A model generated the notes under the pieces. That model made no database searches. It was not told where the DNA came from and was given only the letters and a program-made list of their open reading frames with translations. Source: Gemmataceae bacterium (GTDB taxonomy: Bacteria; Planctomycetota; Planctomycetia; Gemmatales; Gemmataceae). From it: 50,977 nt of DNA. The translations under genes and the position numbers were made by a program. The stretch covers positions 1-50,977 of the forward strand of contig SHZZ01000025.1 of the NCBI GenBank assembly GCA_009692005.1, read 5' to 3'. Of the stretch, positions 1,699 to 8,125 are shown in pieces (the first letter of the stretch is position 1; each line of letters starts with the position of its first letter).

Positions 1699-2625
1699 TC
1701 AGCGCGCCAGCCAGACCTGGGCCGCGACCACCGCAAGTAGGCCCAGGCTAATAACGGCGTTGACATGGAAGAACGCACGGTTAACCCGCGACAGGTCATC
1801 GGCGCGCACCAGGGAATGCTGATAAAGAACCAAGAGCCCGGCAGCAGCCACTCCGCCCAGATAAATCCAGCCCAGCAAGTGAGGGGCAAGAAAATACAAT
1901 CCGGTTAGAAACAGCAACATTGCCATATGGGCGACAAAAGCAATCTTTAAGGATTTATTAATCCCCCAGCGGGCCGGGATGCTAAACAATCCCTGGCCAC
2001 GGTCAAATTCCATGTCCTGGCAAGAATAAAGAATGTCGAACCCCGCCACCCAGAAAAGCACGGCCCCGGTTAACATCAGGGGGATAGGCGCTTCGCTCCA
2101 GGCCAGGCCGCGAATGGCCACCCAGGCCCCCAAGGGCGCCAGGGACAGGGCAAAACCGAGCCAAAAATGGGAAAGGGAAGTGAAGCGCTTGGCCAGGGAA
2201 TAGCCCAAGAGAACCACCATGGCCAGTGGGGATAAAATCAAAGGCCAGGGGTTATTTATCAGAAGGAATAAAGCCGCCGAGGCGAAAAAACCAACCAGGG
2301 TCAGAAAAAAGAGGGACCAAACCTCGATTTTAGTCAAAATCCCCGCGGGTAAATGGCGGCCAGAGGTTCGAGGATTGTTTTTGTCGTAAGTACTGTCTAC
2401 TAAACGGTTAAATGCCATTCCTGCAGTCCGTCCAGTGACCATGCAGGCCAGAATTCCAGCCAATTGCAGCCAGTGAAATTCCCGGGCGATTTTCCAGGCC
2501 AATAGACCGGAAATCAGGGCAAAAGGCAGGGCAAAAACCGTATGGCTAAATTTAACCAAATCCAGGTAGTTCCGGGCCAGTTCCACCCCGGTTTTCACCC
2601 CAGATTTACTTACTGCTCTTCCCAT
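1699..2625 (-). CDS. UbiA-family prenyltransferase (UbiA-like/MqnP type)
   Basis: A 308-aa integral membrane aromatic prenyltransferase. The first Asp-rich polyprenyl-diphosphate-binding motif, NRLVDSTYDKNNPRT, begins at residue 73 and is followed by GRHLPAG. The second, DILYSCQDMEFD, lies near residue 200 and is followed by SIPARWG. Hydrophobic segments fill the rest, as expected for an eight- or nine-helix fold. These motifs match the UbiA-like group that includes MqnP of the futalosine menaquinone route and 4-hydroxybenzoate prenyltransferases. A quinone role is likely, but the exact acceptor is not determined. The ATG at 2625 is preceded by AGGGGG on the minus strand. Confidence 0.85.
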   Translation of the reverse strand: MGRAVSKSGVKTGVELARNYLDLVKFSHTVFALPFALISGLLAWKIAREFHWLQLAGILACMVTGRTAGMAFNRLVDSTYDKNNPRTSGRHLPAGILTKIEVWSLFFLTLVGFFASAALFLLINNPWPLILSPLAMVVLLGYSLAKRFTSLSHFWLGFALSLAPLGAWVAIRGLAWSEAPIPLMLTGAVLFWVAGFDILYSCQDMEFDRGQGLFSIPARWGINKSLKIAFVAHMAMLLFLTGLYFLAPHLLGWIYLGGVAAAGLLVLYQHSLVRADDLSRVNRAFFHVNAVISLGLLAVVAAQVWLAR

Positions 2626-2720
2626 CCGGCCCCCTATTTCCCATTTCTTTTCAAATATTACGCTTGCCTGAGAGCAACATTCTCCCGAAAATACCCTGGT
2701 CCTGGATTAAGGGTAATCGT

Positions 2721-2794
2721 TTAACCAGGACTACGCGAACAAAAGGGGAGAAGGAAACTTCACCCCAACAGGGCGCCGGGCCTTAACCAGGACT
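2721..2794 (+). promoter_or_regulatory. Repeat and hairpin in nusA leader
   Basis: The 12-mer TTAACCAGGACT occurs at 2721-2732 and again at 2783-2794. Between the copies, at 2745-2766, is a hairpin: GGGG-A-GAAG, a GAAA (GNRA-type) loop, then CTTC-A-CCCC. No gene lies on the plus strand here, so this belongs to the untranslated leader of nusA. That it is regulatory is inference. Confidence 0.35.
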
Positions 2795-2830
2795 GAGCGC
2801 TGCCGACCTGTAAAGGGAGAACGGCATTCC

Positions 2831-2859
2831 GGGTGGGACCTGTCCCACTCTTTTTTTTT
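2831..2859 (+). terminator. Terminator/attenuator hairpin upstream of nusA
   Basis: GGGTGGGA (2831-2838) pairs with TCCCACTC (2843-2850), eight pairs with one G-U, around a CCTG loop, followed directly by nine T residues (2851-2859). This is a textbook intrinsic terminator shape, 45 bp before the nusA ATG. No plus-strand gene ends upstream, so it is better read as an attenuator of the nusA operon than as a gene terminator. Confidence 0.55.
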
Positions 2860-2861
2860 AC

Positions 2862-2878
2862 CCAAGGAACTTCCTTGG
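2862..2878. promoter_or_regulatory. 17-bp perfect dyad between attenuator and nusA
   Basis: CCAAGGAA-C-TTCCTTGG is a perfect inverted repeat centred on 2870, immediately after the T tract and 25 bp before the nusA start. A one-base loop favours a protein operator or part of an alternative fold over a simple hairpin. Its function is unknown. Confidence 0.4.
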
Positions 2879-2903
2879 AAAAGGTCTTGAGGGGAAAAGC
2901 AGG

Positions 2904-4430
2904 ATGAATGGGCAAGACTTGATTCGGGGCGTCGACATTCTCCATAGGGAAAAAACCATTCCCCGCGAACTCATTTTCAGCAGCATTGAAAAAGCGCTAC
3001 GGCTGGCAATCGTTAAATGGCAGAGCGGGTTGCTAACCACGGTCAAACTGAAAAAGCCCAAGAAGAAACCCGAGTCTATTATCGAACCGCCGCCGGAAAC
3101 GACGGCTGCCCTGGCCATCGAGATAGATCCCGATGAGGTCCGTGAGGAGGATGTGCAGGTAGCCATCGACCGGCAAACCGGGGAAATTGTCGCCAAGTAT
3201 AAAGAGAATTCGCTTTCACCCGATGCCGTTGGGCGCATCGCGGCGCAGTCGGCCAAACAGTTGATGATCCAGAATTTCCGCGAGGCGGAAAGCGAACAGG
3301 TCTTTAACGAATACAACGCGCAAAAAGGCGACCAGGTCCAGGGAACCGTGCAGCGGATTGAAAAAGGCGCCGCCACCGTCTCTCTGGGAAAAGTAGAAAC
3401 CATCCTGCCACGCAGCGAACAAATCCCCGGCGAAACCCATCACATCGGCGAGCGGGTAAAAGCGGTTATTCTTGAGGTGCGCAAGGTGGGCCATCGTGTG
3501 CGCATTGTCCTTTCCCGCACGCATCCCGATTTCGTCCGTCGCCTTTTCGAGAACGAAATTCCCGAGATTGCCGACCGAACTATCGAAATCAAGGCCGTTT
3601 CACGCGAAGCAGGCTACCGCAGTAAAGTGGCTGTTTCCAGCATCGACATGAAAGTCGATTGCGTTGGCGCTTGCGTGGGAGTTCGCGGCAGCAGGATCAA
3701 GAACATCGTCGATGAACTCAGTGGCGAGCGCATTGACATCGTCCGCTGGAACGATTCTCTGCAAGTTCTTATTCCCTATGCCTTGCAGCCAGCGCAAATT
3801 GAGGAAGTTTTCCTTTACCCCAAACTTGGTCGCGCCATCGTTCTCGTCAAGGAAGATCAGCTTTCCCTGGCCATCGGCCGGCGGGGACAAAATGTTCGCC
3901 TAGCCTCCAAGCTGGTCGGCTGGGACATCGACATCATGACCCACGACGAACTCAATGATGTTATTCAGAAGGCCGAAGGCTGGTTCAGCCAGCTTCCTGG
4001 GCTGGCGCCGGAAATGGTCGAAGGATTTATCGAAGAAGGGTTCCTCTCCTTTGAGGACATTACTTATTTGGAACCGGCGCAGTTAGTGGAAATGACCGGG
4101 GTCACTGAGGACCAGGCCGAAGACATTATCGCCTACGCCGAGGAAGCCGCCGAGCAGGTCGAAGAAGAAAAAATGCGAGCAAAAGAATTGGCGGAAGAAA
4201 GCGGGGTTCCCATACCCGTTCCCGTCAGGGGAGCGGCCGTGGCCCGCCAGGCCTTTGAAAACCTTTTTGTTCAGCCCGCCGCCGAGAGTCAGGAACCAGC
4301 CCAACCAGGGGAAGAGACCGACCAGGCCCAAGCAGTGCTGGAGGAAACCCCGGACAATGAAACTTCTGCCGCAGTGGACCAAGAACCTGCTGGCGATCCA
4401 CCCCAGGACTCCACCCCGGAGGGAAACTAG
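2904..4430 (+). CDS. nusA: Transcription termination/antitermination factor NusA
   Basis: A 508-aa protein that binds RNA polymerase and nascent RNA and controls pausing, termination and antitermination. The N-terminal RNAP-binding domain covers about 1-135 and the S1 domain about 138-205 (GDQVQGTVQRI). Two KH domains follow with GVRGSRI and IGRRGQN loops near 255 and 325. A helical repeat-like region lies at about 370-440, and a long acidic Glu/Gln-rich tail at about 440-508. The acidic tail is longer than in many orthologues. It is the first gene of the nusA-infB-ylxP-rbfA cluster; the rimP gene that usually precedes nusA is absent. GAGGGG precedes the ATG. The structured leader suggests attenuation, possibly autogenous. 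Confidence 0.96.
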   Translation: MNGQDLIRGVDILHREKTIPRELIFSSIEKALRLAIVKWQSGLLTTVKLKKPKKKPESIIEPPPETTAALAIEIDPDEVREEDVQVAIDRQTGEIVAKYKENSLSPDAVGRIAAQSAKQLMIQNFREAESEQVFNEYNAQKGDQVQGTVQRIEKGAATVSLGKVETILPRSEQIPGETHHIGERVKAVILEVRKVGHRVRIVLSRTHPDFVRRLFENEIPEIADRTIEIKAVSREAGYRSKVAVSSIDMKVDCVGACVGVRGSRIKNIVDELSGERIDIVRWNDSLQVLIPYALQPAQIEEVFLYPKLGRAIVLVKEDQLSLAIGRRGQNVRLASKLVGWDIDIMTHDELNDVIQKAEGWFSQLPGLAPEMVEGFIEEGFLSFEDITYLEPAQLVEMTGVTEDQAEDIIAYAEEAAEQVEEEKMRAKELAEESGVPIPVPVRGAAVARQAFENLFVQPAAESQEPAQPGEETDQAQAVLEETPDNETSAAVDQEPAGDPPQDSTPEGN

Positions 4431-4580
4431 CCCCGGCGCCCGGGCGAGCAGGGAAATTTCACTCCATCTTCCCGCACTTGCCTTTTCAACCCTCTACCCG
4501 CGGTTAAAATGAAATTTAGCCGACCTTGGCCCTTTTGGGGGGCCAAGTTCCAAGACATGATTCAGGAGACGGTTTTGCAA

Positions 4581-7379
4581 ATGGGAAAAGTTCGCATCTA
4601 TACTCTGGCCAAGGAATTAAATGTCGATTGCAAAGAGCTGATTGACTTTTGCAACCGCCATGGTTTCGTGGTCAAAACCCAACTGAGTAACCTGGAAACT
4701 GAGCAGGCAGAAATTGTCATCGCCATGATTAAGAAGGGCGGCCTGCACTCCCAGGCCCCGACCGGAACCGGCGCCCTTGCTGCTCCGCCCACGGCTTCCA
4801 TTCCCGCTTTGGTCCCGCACCGCCCGCCTCAGCTTGGCCCCAAGCAACTTTCCAAAAAAGAAGCCGCTCCACCGCCCCCGACGGCTGCCACGGCAGCAAC
4901 CTTGGCGTCAAAATTACCTGTGCCCGAACCTGAGGAGGAAACCCAGGCGGCCGAGCTCGTGCCAACCGAACCCCCGGCCCCGGGGATCGATCCTTCCCCT
5001 GGAACGATTTCAACTCCACCAGCCATGGTGCCAACGACGGCGCCAACCGTGTTGCGTCCGCGGATGCGCAACCTCAATGCCGCGCCGCGCCCCGGCGCCG
5101 GCGAACCGGGATTGCGCCGTCCTGGAGGAATCAGGCCGCCGAGCCGTCCGAGCTCTGTACACCTGGCCCAACCGCCACAGTTAAGGCCCAGGCCCGTGGC
5201 AGACAAGCCCCCGCTGGCCCCAACTGGCCCGAGAAAACTTGCGGATCTCCCCAAGGACCTCCTCAGCAAGGGCGGCATCCCTATGCGGATTGAGGATCTC
5301 AAAAGGCAAACTCTCCTGAAAAACCAACTGGGCGGCCTGACCCAGCCCGGTTTTCCCCCGGCTGTCGAAATCGAGGACGATGATGACCCTGACGGCCAAA
5401 AGGGAAAACGCCCGGGGGGCGTGGCCGGCCGCGCCGACCGTCACAAAGAGCGCAGCGAAAAGCAGGCGCGCAAGAAACAAGATGAACCCACTTTCCTCGG
5501 CCATAATCTGACGGGATTGCTCGACCAGGAGGACCGGGGATCGCAACAGGCGCGGGAAAGGCGGCATCGGCACAAAGTCCAGCACGGGCCGCAGCCAAGA
5601 AAAGGCAAAATCCAATTAGAAACCCCCATCACCGTTCGGTCTTTGTCCGAGGCCGTGGGCATCAAGTCTTCCGAACTGCTGTTGAAATTGATGGGCGCCG
5701 GGCTCGCCAGCAAGTTGAATATTAATTCAGTCATCGAGCCCGACTTCGCAGCCACCATCGCCTTGGAAGCTGGCAGTGAACTGGAAATCAAGAAGAAAGC
5801 CGACATCGAGGAGAATCTCCTCGCCGGGTTGGCAGTTGAAGACCAGGAATCCGATCTGGTTCACCGCGCCCCCATTGTCACCGTCATGGGGCATGTCGAT
5901 CACGGCAAAACCTCCTTGCTCGACAAGATTCGCAAAAGCGATGTGGTCTCAACCGAAACGGGGGGCATCACCCAGGTGCTGCGAGCTTGGCGGGTGGATC
6001 ACAATGGCAAGGCAATCACCTTCCTTGACACCCCCGGCCACGAGGCCTTCACCAAGATGCGGGCCCGCGGCGCCAATGTCACGGACATCGCCATCATTGT
6101 TGTCGCCGCCGACGACGGCCTCATGCCGCAAACCGAAGAAGCCATCAACCACGCCAAGGCTGCCGGCGTGAAAATCATCGTTGCTATTAACAAAGTCGAC
6201 CTCCCCAGCGCCAACATTCGCAAGACCGAGCAGCAGCTTTATGGTCAAGGGCTCATCCCCGACACCATGGGCGGCGAAGTGCAGTTCGTGCAGACCAGCG
6301 CCGTCTCGGGAAAAGGCATCAATGAGCTTCTCGAAACGATTTCTCTGGTGGCCGAGGTCGAGGATTTCCGCGCGAATCCTGCCAAGCCAGCCAAAGGCGT
6401 TTGCCTGGAAGGCAATGTCAGCGAGGGCGAGGGCATTTTTGCCACCGTGCTGGTGCAGGAAGGCACGCTGCGCAGGGGGGATGTCATCCTGTGTGGCACG
6501 GGCTACGGTCGCGTGCGTTCCATGTACGACGATCTCGGCCGCCCAATTCAGGAAGCCGGCCCCAGCTCCCCTTGCCGCATCACAGGCCTGGATGAGCTGC
6601 CCAACGCCGACGACACTTTCGTCATTGTCCCCGACTTGGCCCAGGCCCGGGAAGTTTCCAGCCGCAGGAAAATGCGGGCTTTGGAACAGCAGTTGCAAAA
6701 ACGCGCGCCCGTCACCCTGGAAAACCTTTCCCTCAACAAAGTCACCGAGTTAAAAGTCATCCTCAAAGCCGACTTCCGCGGTTCCATCGAAGCCATTCGC
6801 AAGGAACTGGAAAAGCTCAAGCACGAGGAAGTCGCTGTCCGCGTGTTGCACGCGGGCGTGGGCGGCATCACCGAAAGCGATATTCAACTGGCGATGGCCT
6901 CGCCGAGCGACACCATCGTGGTGGGCTTCAACTCCGTGCCTGATGACCGCGCCCATGCCCTTTCCGATGAGAAGGGAATCCAGGTTCGACAATACAACAT
7001 CATCTACAATCTGACCGATGATGTGCGGAACGCCCTGGAAGGCAAACTGAAACCGCGCGAGGAAATCATCCATCTCGGCCGCGCCGTCGTACGCGAAACC
7101 TTCAAAGTCAGTCGAGTCGGCACCATCGCCGGCTGCTTTGTCACCCAGGGCGTCATCGAGCGCTCGGCCAAGGTGCGGGTCATCCGCAGCGGCGTGGTGA
7201 TTTATCCCCCGCCAGACAGAAGCGCCGGCCTCGATTCCCTTAAGCGCTTCAAGGACGATGCCCGCGAAGTTCGCGACGGTTTCGAGTGCGGCATCAAAAT
7301 CGCGGGCTACAACGACATCAAAGTCGATGATGTCATCGAGGCCTTCCGCGTTGAACAAATTCAGCGAACGCTGTCCTAA
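4581..7379 (+). CDS. infB: Translation initiation factor IF-2
   Basis: The GTPase that places initiator tRNA on the 30S subunit and promotes subunit joining. An IF2_N helical domain opens the protein ([14 protein letters not shown]). A long Pro/Ala-rich linker extends to about residue 345, followed by a second IF2_N-like domain ([14 protein letters not shown]). The G domain starts near residue 430 with [17 protein letters not shown] and SAVSGKG, and the beta-barrel and C-terminal domains follow. The start at 4581 is chosen because MGKVRIYTL is the conserved N-terminus and CAGGAG lies upstream. An in-frame ATG at 4509 would add 24 unconserved residues (956 aa in total). It follows nusA by 150 bp. 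Confidence 0.95.
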
Positions 7380-7705: not shown

Positions 7706-8125
7706 ATGAAAACGCATCGGGTAGCTCGGGTGGCAAAAGTGATTCGCGAAGTGGCCAGCGAGACCATTTTGTTTAAACTGCGCGACCCGCGGATCCACAT
7801 GACTACCGTGCTGCGGGCTGAAGTATCCGGCGATTTGCAACACGCCAAGGTTTATGTATCCGTGATGGGAACAGAAGCCGAGGAGAAGGAGACCCTGCGC
7901 GCCTTGAACCATGCCAGCGGGGTGGTGCAGGCCGGCTTGGCCGACCGCATGAAAACCCGCTTTCTCCCGGTGATTACCTTTTATATCGACCGCGGCGTCA
8001 AGAAAAGCCTGGAAGTCAGCCGCCTGATTCAGGAAGCGCTGGCGGCGGGAAAAAAAGAAGAGCCCGTGGAGGAAACCCAAGATACGGTTGAACCTGATTC
8101 CGCAAGCGATAGGATTGAAGATTAG
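7706..8125 (+). CDS. rbfA: 30S ribosome-binding factor RbfA
   Basis: A 139-aa protein needed for late 30S maturation and 16S rRNA 5'-end processing. It has the single KH-like fold signatures of the family: RVAKVIREVASETI, LRDPRI near residues 25-32, and DLQHAKVYVSVMG with its strand/helix spacing. A charged tail of about 20 residues (GKKEEPVEET) extends beyond the core. It sits 15 bp after DUF503 in the infB operon, the usual place for rbfA. Confidence 0.94.
   Translation: MKTHRVARVAKVIREVASETILFKLRDPRIHMTTVLRAEVSGDLQHAKVYVSVMGTEAEEKETLRALNHASGVVQAGLADRMKTRFLPVITFYIDRGVKKSLEVSRLIQEALAAGKKEEPVEETQDTVEPDSASDRIED

Follow-up and report, generated by a model that had tools for sequence, protein, structure and literature searches.

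Transcription of nusA in this Gemmataceae bacterium is, on the evidence of sequence comparison, very likely controlled by premature termination in the leader of its mRNA. The window (the whole stretch of DNA analysed, 50,977 nucleotides of contig SHZZ01000025.1) carries a conserved, nusA-specific intrinsic terminator between a conserved promoter and the gene, and the leader attenuator proposed for this position in an earlier note is thereby well supported. It is reasonably probable that the terminator attenuates nusA with NusA itself as the most likely controlling factor. The coordinates of the locus are collected in Table 1.

Table 1. Features of the nusA locus and its leader in the window
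Feature	Position	Strand	Basis or remark
Divergent UbiA/MqnP-like prenyltransferase gene	1699-2625	-	TIGR01475; same neighbour in nearest genus
Probable promoter (-35 TTGCCT 2664-2669, 17-nt spacer, -10 GAAAAT 2687-2692)	2664-2692	+	Placed by conservation
5' leader hairpin GGTCCTGGATTAA...TTTAACCAGGAC	2698-2732	+	Folding; 5' arm could pair instead with repeat copy 2; not conserved in nearest genus
Direct repeat, copy 1	2721-2732	+	Sequence; not conserved in nearest genus
GAAA-loop hairpin	2745-2766	+	Sequence and folding; not conserved in nearest genus
Direct repeat, copy 2	2783-2794	+	Sequence; not conserved in nearest genus
nusA-specific conserved intrinsic terminator (putative attenuator)	2831-2859	+	Stem 2831-2850, nine T 2851-2859
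17-bp dyad/small hairpin between terminator and ribosome-binding site	2862-2878	+	Sequence not conserved
GAGGGG, probable Shine-Dalgarno sequence of nusA	2889-2894	+	Sequence
nusA	2904-4430	+	NCBIfam TIGR01953, 322.7 bits against a cut-off of 253.4
infB (IF-2), next gene of likely operon	4509-7379	+	TIGR00487
rbfA, further gene of likely operon	7706-8125	+	TIGR00082

The nusA locus and its probable promoter

On the 3' side of nusA, the window contains infB, then a short ORF, and then rbfA. In E. coli and B. subtilis, nusA is preceded by rimP, the gene with which the Bacillus nusA operon starts. By contrast, no match to RimP_N (PF02576) was found in the whole genome to which the window belongs, using a search that was positive in 10 of 14 control genomes, and nusA is therefore regarded as the first gene of a nusA-infB-rbfA cluster. 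The closest gene upstream is the prenyltransferase gene on the minus strand, which agrees with the earlier claim that no plus-strand gene precedes the leader. Given this divergent arrangement, the terminator cannot be there to stop read-through from a plus-strand gene immediately before it.

The leader was aligned with those of six species of the nearest genus, the window's own genus being represented by a single genome. Three peaks of conservation were seen, corresponding to the promoter, the terminator, and the ribosome-binding region. The promoter peak reads ATTACGCTTGCCT...GAAAATA, and the terminator peak, together with its flank, reads TTCCGGGTGGG...TCCCACTCTTTTTTTTTA. The probable promoter had been missed by the earlier note. 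Its hexamers and their spacing (TTGCCT-N17-GAAAAT) are identical in all seven nearest-genus genomes and in locus L051, and an equivalent form, TTGCYC-N17-GACAAT, is found in L043, L048, and L055. The transcription start is accordingly placed, provisionally, at about 2699. The approximately 130 nt between promoter and terminator, including the direct repeat and the GAAA hairpin, are not conserved in comparison with the nearest genus, and neither is the sequence of the dyad that follows the terminator. An alignment of upstream regions from relatives, which had been recommended as a check on the leader, gave a divided outcome: the nearest genus keeps the terminator, but not the direct repeat, the GAAA hairpin, or the dyad.

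The U-run ends 44 nt before the nusA start codon in the window and 19-44 nt before it in about 30 loci (19-37 nt in many relatives), which is too little for a promoter, and no promoter-like site was found in this interval in the window. With no promoter downstream and no room for one, polymerase must cross the terminator before it reaches nusA. A transcription start downstream of 2860 had been named as an observation that would speak against attenuation; there being neither room nor a promoter in that region, the claim stands. The intrinsic terminator sits, as an attenuator does, between the promoter (as located by conservation) and nusA.

These observations also bear on whether the hairpin could be a mere insulator against upstream transcription, with the nusA promoter lying downstream of it. 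Such a role would suit some relatives, in which a co-directional ABC-transporter-like gene ends shortly upstream, but it is quite improbable given the divergent upstream gene in the window and nearest genus, the short interval without a promoter-like site after the U-run, and the conserved promoter upstream of the terminator.

Conservation and specificity of the terminator

The intrinsic terminator has the form claimed for it, a stem of GGGTGGGA-CCTG-TCCCACTC followed by nine T residues. The comparison drew on NusA loci from 80 related records and from 95 family genomes. The consensus of the hairpin upstream of nusA is [A/G]AGUGGG, 3 to 9 nt, CCC[A/G]CUU, and approximately seven U, commonly with G or A and UU after them. 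Searching for the pattern GTGGG(n)CCC[A/G]C with an adjoining 3' U-run placed this hairpin 20-273 nt before nusA in 52 of 81 planctomycete loci, whereas 1.38 Mb of other sequence taken from these loci gave 4 matches by chance. Because the core letters served to pick these 52 loci, their invariance is partly circular; independent support comes from a sequence-blind terminator scan, which recovered the same hairpin upstream of nusA in most loci with a strong terminator.

Searches of 95 whole family genomes with GTGGGN{3,9}CCCRCYTTTTT returned 35 matches. Of the 35, 27 lie immediately before nusA, and the hairpin is therefore regarded as specific to nusA, as opposed to a stock terminator. On the scale of the class (198 genomes, a set that overlaps with the 95 of the family), 43 of the 58 matches with a known nusA position are at nusA. 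This search pattern does not cover the variant of the window and the nearest genus, in which CCCACTC precedes the U-run; GTGGGACnnGTCCCAC occurs in the window's own genome only at nusA. The hairpin is retained beside divergent or co-directional upstream genes, of whatever family. A covariance model of the hairpin (216 phylum genomes) was discarded as too short for useful specificity, and exact patterns and NusA positions were used for this reason.

Compensatory variation is seen in the outer and innermost stem pairs and not in the middle of the stem, and the stem letters are near-invariant across the class. A lack of conservation or covariation in the hairpins had been listed as counting against the attenuator; the terminator is conserved and shows some compensatory change. 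The constancy of the stem appears to exceed the needs of simple termination and suggests sequence-specific recognition by some factor.

A different account would have a trans-acting small RNA of ~160 nt end at the terminator, with nusA merely adjoining it. Promoter, structured leader, and strong terminator do make up a complete transcription unit, but the body of the leader is unconserved even in the nearest genus and the terminator is tied to nusA over the class, so that a small RNA is very improbable.

The nusA hairpin is absent from a Gemmata/Isosphaera clade of NusA, where it is evidently dispensable, and in a NusA tree (a quick version) its loss is mostly found in this one clade. The loci concerned are L060-L084, and in several of them nusA closely follows an ABC-transporter-like gene. 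Among the papers listed by the literature searches, none was found to describe this nusA terminator element.

Other elements of the leader

The 12-bp direct repeat (TTAACCAGGACT), the GAAA-loop hairpin (GGGGAGAAG-GAAA-CTTCACCCC, with eight pairs and one A-A mismatch), and the perfect 17-bp dyad (CCAAGGAAcTTCCTTGG) are all present in the window as the earlier note had described them. A 5' element absent from that note (GTCCTGGATTAA, 2699-2710) could pair with either copy of the direct repeat. The element and the two identical copies form a switch-like layout, which the nearest genus does not keep. Folding of the leader is stronger than in 200 of 200 dinucleotide shuffles (z -3.2). Rfam searches of the leader at the gathering threshold and at an E value of 10 gave nothing credible, in keeping with the earlier remark that no described RNA family has this form.

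The strong folding of the leader, and the alternative pairing of its 5' element with two repeat copies, are what a ligand-binding riboswitch controlling the terminator might show. Against this, neither an Rfam covariance-model match nor a conserved aptamer was found, the latter in the alignment with the nearest genus, and by duplex energies the pairing of leader segments with the two terminator arms stayed within chance (in both groups the mean z was 0 or above), which leaves a riboswitch extremely improbable. The ligand-controlled attenuator that had been suggested is unsupported on the same grounds, with the repeat and GAAA hairpin unconserved in the nearest genus and no antiterminator pairing. 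Nor could a role be sustained for the dyad as an operator or part of an antiterminator; it is unconserved in the nearest genus, and no pairing of a leader segment with the terminator arms exceeded chance. Because the nearest genus lacks the repeat, the GAAA hairpin, and the dyad, none of the three was retained as a candidate regulatory part.

Further hairpins were noted in the leaders. One immediately ahead of the terminator is no more than suggestive (mean z -0.79 compared with -0.13 in coding sequence). In L053, L054, L056, and L059, hairpins, some of them long, lie between the terminator and the ribosome-binding site, a position like that of the dyad. The post-terminator hairpins of relatives have a mean z of -1.0, and their sequence is not conserved. 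In L043, the part of the nusA leader that precedes the terminator is filled by a long inverted repeat, CCCGCCCGCTTGGCCAACGAGCCGGAAGC with its complement.

The leader of the window contains no ATG and no TTG, and its single GTG is inside the terminator. A leader ORF, as expected of a leader-peptide attenuator, is absent from the window's leader and was found only in the sister clade Planctomycetaceae, a label that follows the titles of the records.

Minimal reading frames in Planctomycetaceae nusA leaders

A total of 39 non-redundant leaders from the Planctomycetaceae clade were collected, each confirmed to precede nusA. A Shine-Dalgarno-led ORF of 1-6 codons is present in 38 of the 39 (2.6 expected; maximum 9 in 200 shuffles), and 24 contain a pure AUG-stop frame, against 0.6 expected and at most 3 in any of 200 shuffles. 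The median distance from the short ORFs to the terminator is about 115 nt; the frames read, for example, M*, MF*, MC*, MSA*, MDKM*, and MHSM*, and loci with such frames include L087 (~113 nt before the terminator), L103, L113, L175, L177, L186, and L188, among others. All three stop codons are used by the start-stop frames (TAG 12, TAA 6, TGA 6), which argues for their translation. The sequence ATGTGG was never found in that stretch of the Planctomycetaceae-clade leaders, and the reverse strand, searched in a first, slightly larger leader set, contained none of these frames. Promoters upstream of the ORFs could not be recognised in these leaders, and the ORFs are therefore only assumed to lie within the transcript.

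Among 30 leaders from the window's side of the NusA tree, none has a start-stop frame and 3 have a short frame (1.2 expected). Across the tree, the short frames fall in one well-supported clade, except for two cases that are likely to be due to chance.

These frames raise the question of whether the attenuator is real and its regulator is something other than NusA, either a system that senses leader translation or a protein that binds the stem, such as IF2 or a ribosomal protein. The near-invariance of the stem letters over the class, the frequency of the short and start-stop ORFs at their position ahead of the terminator, and the presence of the IF2 gene in the operon are all consistent with such a regulator. 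Sensing of translation, however, is at odds with the lack of usable start codons in the window leader outside the terminator and of start-stop ORFs on the window's side of the tree, and no RNA switch was found that would join the ORF to the terminator. A regulator other than NusA is considered unlikely. Tentatively, and with rather less confidence than would be given to an even choice, the class-wide nusA terminator may be the core of an attenuator whose input differs among lineages, being the 1-6-codon ORF in Planctomycetaceae and operating without leader translation in the lineage of the window.

Proposed mechanism and comparison with known systems

Where NusA itself is the controlling factor, as is preferred here, transcription would start near 2699 from the conserved promoter, and the region from 2699 onward would form the 5' leader of a nusA-infB-rbfA mRNA. 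Polymerase would then meet the intrinsic terminator, and the fraction that reads through would alone make nusA mRNA. Plentiful NusA would increase termination in its own leader, and scarce NusA would permit read-through. Termination at 2831-2859 is presumably partial in vivo, and control by NusA would, by analogy, be autogenous. That the terminator alone is conserved in the leader fits a regulator acting on termination itself, and NusA is such a factor.

In B. subtilis, NusA controls its own gene by stimulating termination in the 5' leader (Mondal et al. 2016, as described in PMC12288461). The two leaders are alike in that an intrinsic terminator sets transcription into the gene for termination-stimulating NusA. 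They differ in that the planctomycete stem is conserved in its letters over the class and its dependence on NusA is a prediction. NusA- and NusG-dependent terminators of B. subtilis have weak end pairs and interrupted U-tracts (PMC8060035). Many relatives of the window are similar, with A-U or G-U end pairs and a G or A after U7, but the window is not, and by the Bacillus criteria its terminator may be independent of NusA, having a strong stem and a run of nine U without interruption. The planctomycete element would work like the Bacillus nusA attenuator, and would be the same regulated system only if it is NusA-dependent.

The B. subtilis rplJL leader (L10(L12)4, PMC4538822) likewise places a gene-expression operon under autogenous control by a leader terminator, but it relies in addition on an RNA that binds protein and on an antiterminator/anti-antiterminator switch, neither of which was found in the window. 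Eukaryotic AUG-stop uORFs, such as that of Arabidopsis NIP5;1 (cited in PMC5972666), resemble those of the Planctomycetaceae nusA leaders in being leader ORFs of a start and a stop only. Unlike the eukaryotic ones, the Planctomycetaceae frames are bacterial, Shine-Dalgarno-led, and located before a transcription terminator; the window is without any.

Bacillus is known to attenuate nusA through a leader terminator, and such control would now extend to a distant phylum. There, the stem letters are nearly constant and the terminator is almost reserved for one gene, which suggests that some factor reads the sequence of the terminator. The start-stop frames of the Planctomycetaceae, if they act on the terminator, would represent a sensor of translation initiation in bacteria whose codon content is small or nil. 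If the lineage-specific input holds true, translation initiation in the Planctomycetaceae would set the transcription of nusA-infB, with the loop closed via IF2.
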